Source: a virus
DNA: 51,328 nt
IMG/VR virus record: IMGVR_UViG_3300020220_000076
Location: 1 to 51,328 of that record
Strand: one strand, 5' to 3'
Shown: one piece after another, positions 50,666 to 51,318 of the stretch
Numbering within the stretch: the first letter of the stretch is position 1
Layout: every line of letters begins with the position of its first letter
Position numbers and translations under genes: made by a program
Notes under the pieces: generated by a model
The model's input: the letters and a program-made list of their open reading frames with translations, nothing else
Database searches by the model: none
What the model was told of the DNA's origin: nothing

Positions 50666-50983
50666 TCAGCCGACCCGCAAATAGTGGGTCACGTTCTTAA
50701 TAACGAACTCGCCCAAGTGGTCGAGTCGTGCTTTTTCTGCTTTGAGACTTGCTTCCAAAACCTTAACCGTTTGCCCGTAATCTTTAGAGGTTCGAGTACA
50801 CACAGTGATGGTGCCCTCTTTAACTTTAACCGCGCCGATGTTGTCGGCGGTAAGTTTCTTCAAGAAGTCACCTTTGAGACGCTCAAAGTGATTTTTTGCT
50901 TTCTCCAGTTTGTTATACTCTGCGATCAATTCCGCAGCGAGAGCATCAACGGAGAAGGGATCTTTAGCGTGGTTGGCAGACAT
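50666..50983 (-). CDS. Unrecognised coiled-coil protein (105 aa)
   Basis: The 105-aa protein begins SANHAKDPFSVDALAAELIA, followed by a helix EYNKLEKAKNHFERLKGDFLKKL, a strand segment GAVKVKEGTITVCTRTSKDY, a second helix QTVKVLEASLKAEKARLDHL and a final HYLRVG. This helix-strand-helix arrangement recalls the Gp157 and single-strand-annealing accessory families, but I cannot place it with confidence. Composition and codon usage are coherent, so it is probably real. Base composition is GC-richer than the structural region. A long structured leader lies upstream. Confidence 0.65.
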   Translation of the reverse strand: MSANHAKDPFSVDALAAELIAEYNKLEKAKNHFERLKGDFLKKLTADNIGAVKVKEGTITVCTRTSKDYGQTVKVLEASLKAEKARLDHLGEFVIKNVTHYLRVG

Positions 50984-51083: not shown

Positions 51084-51106
51084 ACCTATCAGCAACGCTA
51101 ATAGGT
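51084..51106 (-). other. 10-bp hairpin that pairs fully only as minus-strand RNA
   Basis: ACCTATTAGC-GTT-GCTGATAGGT (minus strand) forms ten pairs including one U-G wobble; on the plus strand the same position is a C-A mismatch. The stem is followed by TTTCTTCAGG and its tandem copy, a moderately T-rich tail. Confidence 0.6.
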
Positions 51107-51219
51107 CCAATCCGCCAAACGGTAGCAACGGATACAGAACCACAGACCAACCACACCTAGCCTAGAGGGCGGGAGGAGAGGGAATCCTGGCAGAGTTTGT
51201 ATAAAGAACTGAACAACCG

Positions 51220-51318
51220 TAAAGTATAAAGAACTAAGACAGGACTAAGTGTAGAGAACTAAACCACACCACTGACTAACAAACTACACTTAATCCTGAG
51301 TTAGTTCATTATACTTTA
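51220..51318. repeat. 35-nt imperfect inverted repeat at the right end
   Basis: Arms 51220-51254 and 51284-51318 match at 31 of 35 positions in inverted orientation, with a 29-base loop. The inner 15 positions (CAGGATTAAGTGTAG against CTACACTTAGTCCTG on the minus strand) pair completely if one U-G wobble is allowed. TATAAT (51313-51308, minus) lies in the outer arm. The matching -35 would lie beyond the window. Confidence 0.8.

Follow-up and report, generated by a model that had tools for sequence, protein, structure and literature searches.

Do the two hairpins at the right end of a cyanophage genome fragment belong to one transcribed RNA, from which strand would such an RNA be made, and on what would it act? 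The fragment is IMG/VR record IMGVR_UViG_3300020220_000076, analysed over its full 51,328 bases and called the window here. An earlier description made from the letters alone (the sequence-only reading) took both hairpins for attenuator-like stems of a leader or small RNA, made from the minus strand under its own promoter, that precedes a gene for a 105-aa protein.

Genomic setting and parts of the locus

The window is a fragment of a T4-like cyanophage with gp6/gp25-type baseplate genes at 45-47.5 kb. Its annotated genes encode baseplate and unknown proteins, and a simple gene call placed all but one of its 42 ORFs on the minus strand. The nearest isolate over 47-50 kb is Synechococcus phage S-SRM01 (Kyanoviridae; 81% identity). 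Contig L019 is nearly identical to the window end and continues beyond it, where it carries a 51-aa ORF whose stop codon lies 20 nt ahead of the large hairpin. The ORF upstream of the large hairpin is of one of three small types across the homologous loci, its stop being 0-82 nt away in most of them, and the gene downstream varies widely among phages. The window and L019 are homologous through the large hairpin, and their divergence begins just beyond the second hairpin, a point that marks a cassette junction.

The site of the large hairpin is occupied by an HNH endonuclease cassette, between the same neighbours, in two hairpin-less relatives, S-SRM01 (L113:9931-10368; from annotation) and L003 (~2300-2720; from sequence similarity). 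A different, A+T-rich hairpin without the conserved loop lies at or near the syntenic position in phage DSL-LC03 (L002:3949-3997) and in S-SRM01 (L113:9890-9912).

We confirmed the 35-nt inverted repeat of the sequence-only reading. Its arms (51220-51254 and 51284-51318) are 89% complementary and enclose a 29-nt loop, and the inner 15 bp (51284-51298 with 51240-51254) contain a single non-Watson-Crick position, U·G in minus-strand RNA and C·A in plus-strand RNA. The outer helix also has a T·T mismatch and a CT/TC internal loop, which that reading had omitted. The T-rich sequence that it saw after both stems in the minus direction is present, as is its TATAAT box in the outer arm. The predicted fold of the large hairpin has −43.9 kcal/mol as minus-strand RNA (z −5.4; 0/200 shuffles) and −37.4 kcal/mol as plus-strand RNA (z −6.5). 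The parts of the locus are as follows.

51220-51318, minus strand: conserved RNA hairpin, whole (covariance-model match 51221-51317, 99.9 bits)
51299-51318, minus strand: outer helix, 5′ arm (GTATAATGAACTAA region; repeat and covariation)
51308-51313, minus strand: TATAAT in the outer arm, judged not to be a promoter (TATAAA in homologues, no −35)
51284-51298, minus strand: inner 15-bp helix, 5′ arm CAGGATTAAGTGTAG, bearing the U of the U·G wobble (covariation, wobble counts)
51255-51283, minus strand: apical loop (fold)
51260-51276, minus strand: 17 nt of the loop that never vary, GTCAGTGGTGTGGTTTA, antisense to the leaders of cassette genes (alignment, leader matches)
51240-51254, minus strand: inner helix, 3′ arm CTACACTTAGTCCTG (covariation)
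51220-51239, minus strand: outer helix, 3′ arm, U-rich (TCTTAGTTCTTTATACTTTA; alignment, covariation)
51199-51210, minus strand: second copy of the 3′-arm motif, AGTTCTTTATAC (repeat search)
51084-51106, minus strand: second hairpin, 10 bp with a GTT loop; only the core ATTAGCGTTGCTGAT (51088-51102) is conserved, not the outer stem
50666-50983, minus strand: 105-aa ORF downstream of the hairpins; relatives carry many alternative cassettes there

Arm motifs recur around the hairpin. The AGTTCTTTATAC copy in L019 pairs with a further upstream copy, GTATAAAGAAT, to give a longer stem, and additional arm copies are able to nest outside the stem in 14 of 50 distinct loci. In 27 of these loci the 5′ arm could pair instead with a copy of the 3′ arm further upstream, the two pairings being mutually exclusive; this copy lies ~50 nt upstream of the large hairpin in L036, L040, L045, L068 and others. 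The alternative hairpin formed in this way is a possible two-state switch.

A conserved RNA family outside Rfam

Scans of viral contigs by arm pattern and by loop pattern located this hairpin in ~69 further contigs of T4-like cyanophages, and this recurrence puts it far beyond chance. Seven contigs with a 16-nt loop pattern but no stem (L041, L065, L066, L076, L080, L083, L085) were left out, as were three that had only the arm pattern and did not match the model (L115-L117). Every member recovered by two further arm-only scans of viral contigs had the same loop. When 34 records (one of 174.7 kb) were searched end to end, each had exactly one full-length copy; the other matches were the same site on the opposite strand or short neighbouring hairpins. 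A mobile repeat or invertible DNA was ruled out by the single copy and the constant orientation to the neighbours.

Among phage isolates the only match was a weak one of 64 nt in DSL-LC03, at a different hairpin, and a covariance-model search of DSL-LC03, S-SRM01 and S-SKS1 found the large hairpin absent. The exact 24-nt loop motif of the short form was not found in the bacterial and archaeal genomes scanned. A search for tRNAs was negative. No Rfam 15 family reached its gathering threshold at the window end or at six homologous loci, the only hit at the window end being a chance one to mir-221 (17.5 bits against a threshold of 46.6). The passages searched in reviews and in accounts of other cyanophage RNAs do not describe the hairpin. 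We conclude that the large hairpin is a conserved structured RNA family absent from Rfam.

Covariation was assessed in an alignment of 40 distinct homologue sequences with helices of 13 and 15 bp. Standard pairs filled 98.1% of the stem cells, and pairing fell to 33-44% when the partners were slid by 1-3 columns. Seven stem pairs showed two-sided changes, in 60 cells against a shuffled mean of 14.3, and none of 500 shuffles had as many cells (kinship ignored). The long and short forms of the hairpin are set apart by 1-nt indels and by a whole base pair inserted into the outer helix. The region is therefore non-coding, and a coding reading of the hairpin was dropped because of the 1-nt indels.

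Read in the minus-strand sense, the non-Watson-Crick cells comprised 51 G·U (12 kinds) and 6 A·C (3 kinds), which generalises the argument that the sequence-only reading drew from its wobble positions. Since 31 of the 51 G·U cells fall in one column, this evidence for the strand is supportive but inconclusive. The claim of a structured minus-strand RNA was borne out for the large hairpin by the 98.1% pairing, the seven two-sided pairs and the excess of G·U over A·C, and the covariation analysis on related phages that had been proposed as a check showed its stems kept by compensating changes. Judged from these alignments, the large hairpin is very probably a functional structured RNA of the minus strand.

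The second hairpin fared differently. Its 10-bp stem (51084-51093 with 51097-51106) is present, again with one position that is U·G in minus-strand and C·A in plus-strand RNA, and it folds at −16.3 as minus-strand RNA (z −4.5) and at −7.0 as plus-strand RNA. This strength is limited to the window. The outer pairs are broken and the stability is lost in relatives, the very outcome that the sequence-only reading had named as counting against it, and the second hairpin was accordingly dropped as part of the same structured leader. The related loci that possess the 15-nt core ATTAGCGTTGCTGAT, S-SRM01 among them, all have it unchanged; as it is invariant, covariation speaks neither for its 6-bp stem nor against it. 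The second hairpin looks like conserved sequence at a cassette border and not like a part of the large hairpin's RNA. The core adjoins the point where homology between the window and L019 ends, and it is possibly an operator or a recombination border.

The remaining claims for a regulated leader did not hold. Extending the sequence through L019, proposed as a way to find the upstream gene and a −35 element, yielded the gene (the 51-aa ORF) and no −35 element beyond the window end. The TATAAT box occurs only in the window phage and its closest relative, nearly all homologues reading TATAAA instead, and an own promoter is not supported. Neither is a leader of the 105-aa gene, as in most loci the hairpin sits 0-82 nt after the stop of the upstream ORF and the downstream gene is not constant. 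The large hairpin also lacks the make-up of an intrinsic terminator or attenuator: its loop has 29 nt, its U-rich tail is paired in the covarying outer helix, and a terminator scan called none at the element.

The loop and the leaders of small cassette genes

The loop segment GUCAGUGGUGUGGUUUA was identical in 40/40 sequences, also in searches that used the arms alone. Its reverse complement resembles leaders that directly abut the start codons of small genes near the hairpin. We defined leaders as the 30 nt before the start, with gene starts taken from a simple ORF rule, and found antisense matches of at least 9 nt in 37 of 154 gene families, the match ending at most 12 nt from the ATG. When 9-mers were taken along the whole hairpin, most of those from the loop matched 9-18 of the 154 families antisense, and those outside the loop matched at most three; gene-middle controls gave at most one family, and loop 9-mers had no sense-orientation match to the leaders of the 154 families. 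At least 10 contiguous nt matched in 24 of 157 families (mean for dinucleotide-shuffled loops, 1.7; 0/200 as high), and all 28 non-redundant contigs had at least one matching leader, with 106 leaders in total where shuffles gave 6.2 (0/300 reached that number). Because the families, like the contigs, are related to one another, these counts are not independent and are inflated. Duplex energies with the leaders were −14.2 for the loop and −12.1 (sd 0.6) for shuffled loops.

Other results weigh on the opposite side. The leaders are C/A-rich in general, some shuffled loops come close to the observed counts, and the reversed, uncomplemented motif matched 16 families, compared with 24 for the loop antisense. 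A genome-wide scan of loop-complementary words gave no overall enrichment, the signal being confined to the cassette region. We also ranked coding-strand positions with models that were blind to the loop, in sets of 174,656, 116,168 and 51,317 positions. The hairpin ranked 52nd, 8th and 2nd with a leader model from one alignment (top 0.004-0.03%), 1,614th, 82nd and 76th with that from another (0.07-0.9%), and a de novo motif placed it 104th, 55th and 12th (~0.02-0.06%); it was never first. The loop was complementary to leaders at the start codon to a degree that composition does not account for, a signal that was weaker in the loop-blind ranking. Just downstream of the large hairpin, the G/T-rich stretch 51130-51165 of the window also has a high minus-strand anti-leader score.

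The hairpin-less S-SRM01 has similar leaders in similar number (a small sample), which means that the leaders do not depend on the hairpin. Target sites tied to the presence of the hairpin, a supporting though not strictly defining feature, were accordingly not found, and the leaders of S-SRM01 are the main evidence against antisense targeting.

Sequence inspection showed that a −10-like box (TATACT/TAGGAT/TAGACT) closely precedes many of the matching leaders. Small cassette genes at most 6 kb from the hairpin (in L005, L007, L019, L043 and others) share such a box and a C/A-rich leader without a Shine-Dalgarno site, and their leaders are of two types, AGTTCACCACACCACTGAACC-ATG and AGTCAACCACACCACTGAC-ATG. 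With a 5′ UTR of ~20 nt, the loop could cover most of it.

These observations suggest the following mechanism. The large hairpin would be part of the minus-strand transcript of its neighbouring genes, just after the stop of a small early-region ORF. Its two stacked helices would keep the loop open and 17 nt (GUCAGUGGUGUGGUUUA) exposed, and the loop would serve as an antisense seed. Its partners would be the leaders of small-gene cassettes nearby, which are short, C/A-rich and devoid of a Shine-Dalgarno site, of the type ..AGUUCACCACACCACUGAACC-AUG or ..AGUCAACCACACCACUGAC-AUG. Pairing over the region before the start codon would alter translation, most simply by repression, and might work in trans or, for a downstream cassette, in cis.

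Competing explanations and meaning for cyanophage biology

Structure and strand are well supported; the targeting is purely statistical. We regard a phage-encoded antisense hairpin acting on the translation starts of cassette genes as the best explanation, with a probability of roughly 0.45. Its position would also suit a 3′-UTR hairpin that processes, stabilises or terminates the transcript of the upstream small gene, with the loop kept for a protein or nuclease: in most loci the hairpin begins at most 82 nt past the upstream stop codon, U-rich sequence follows the inner stem, and stem-loops tailed by TTCTTTA(C/T)AC lie at the ends of some neighbouring genes. The long loop, the paired U-rich tail and the result of the terminator scan argue against this, and a terminator would leave unexplained both a loop more conserved than its stem and the antisense match to leaders. 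We consider such a hairpin unlikely, yet deserving of weight. Promoter-driven transcription of attenuator stems before the 105-aa gene, as originally proposed, deserves hardly any: the TATAAT, the two stems and the strand shared with the 105-aa gene agree with it, but the box is private to two phages and has no −35 partner, and neither the downstream gene nor the second stem is conserved.

Selection could instead act on DNA, if the arms and AACCACACCACTGAC were read in double-stranded form as an operator or as a recombination or boundary site of the PeSL (promoter-early stem-loop) type, and if the AACCACACCACTGAC motif in reverse orientation marked the cassette leaders. Differing downstream genes, the divergence of the window and L019 just past the second hairpin, the HNH cassette at the same site in S-SRM01 and L003, and the recurring arm motifs all fit such a device. 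The hairpin is a single copy, whereas PeSLs recur; 51 G·U to 6 A·C is not predicted by selection at the DNA level; and an invariant loop facing variable leaders is what one antisense RNA with many targets would give. A DNA device therefore seems distinctly improbable to us. It is less probable still that the loop acts on host RNA, as a sponge or a repressor of host mRNA, and that it matches phage leaders only because the loop is G/U-rich and the leaders are C/A-rich. Such leaders are general and occur also in a hairpin-less phage, and host RNAs could be partners too, but counts as high as those observed are rare among composition-preserving shuffles (0/200, 0-1/300) and there is no known host target.

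The antisense reading has precedents among phages. A review (PMC12197685) describes P22 sar, lambda OOP and lambda PreS as antisense or seed-pairing phage RNAs, and reports that pairing of sar hampers initiation of ant translation. Like these, the hairpin is proposed to be a small phage RNA that pairs with mRNA; unlike them, it has one loop matching many cassette-gene leaders in T4-like cyanophages, is not transcribed opposite its targets, and regulates only in our proposal. The same review describes CfrI of cyanophage S-PM2, ~225 nt long, cis-antisense to psbA and encoded beside a homing endonuclease gene. CfrI is a regulatory RNA of a T4-like cyanophage, as our hairpin is proposed to be, but ours is short and flanked by small ORFs of other kinds, and no psbA appears among the annotated genes of the window. 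PeSLs of T4-like phages, according to the account in PMC4503421 (citing Arbiol 2010 and Comeau 2014), recur and combine a terminator with an early promoter. Like them, the hairpin is a stem-loop at a boundary of shuffled small-gene cassettes; it differs in its single copy per record, its invariant loop and the lack of a promoter or terminator call. The Rfam families wcaG, manA, glnA and abiF, recorded in cyanophages in PMC9964418, are likewise conserved structured RNAs of T4-like cyanophages, and unlike them the hairpin has no Rfam match.

As summarised in a review (PMC3014915), T4 RegA competes for the AUG and the stretch directly ahead of it in ~30 mRNAs. The likeness would be one of role only, as RegA is a protein with A+U-rich sites and the hairpin is an RNA facing C/A-rich leaders. 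Carried further, the antisense reading would make the invariant loop of this single RNA a general anti-leader, an RNA counterpart of RegA under which any cassette arriving with the shared leader would fall. We put this forward tentatively, as a step that is rather more doubtful than not.

A widespread group of cyanophages gains a conserved RNA family outside Rfam, and the match of loop and leaders supplies a directly testable partner and sequence, with a bearing on translation initiation in cyanophage genes without Shine-Dalgarno sites. If the loop pairs with the leaders, a single control would govern fast-changing accessory genes, with no need for gene-by-gene regulators; and if the anti-leader reading is true, newly acquired genes would share a common translational switch.
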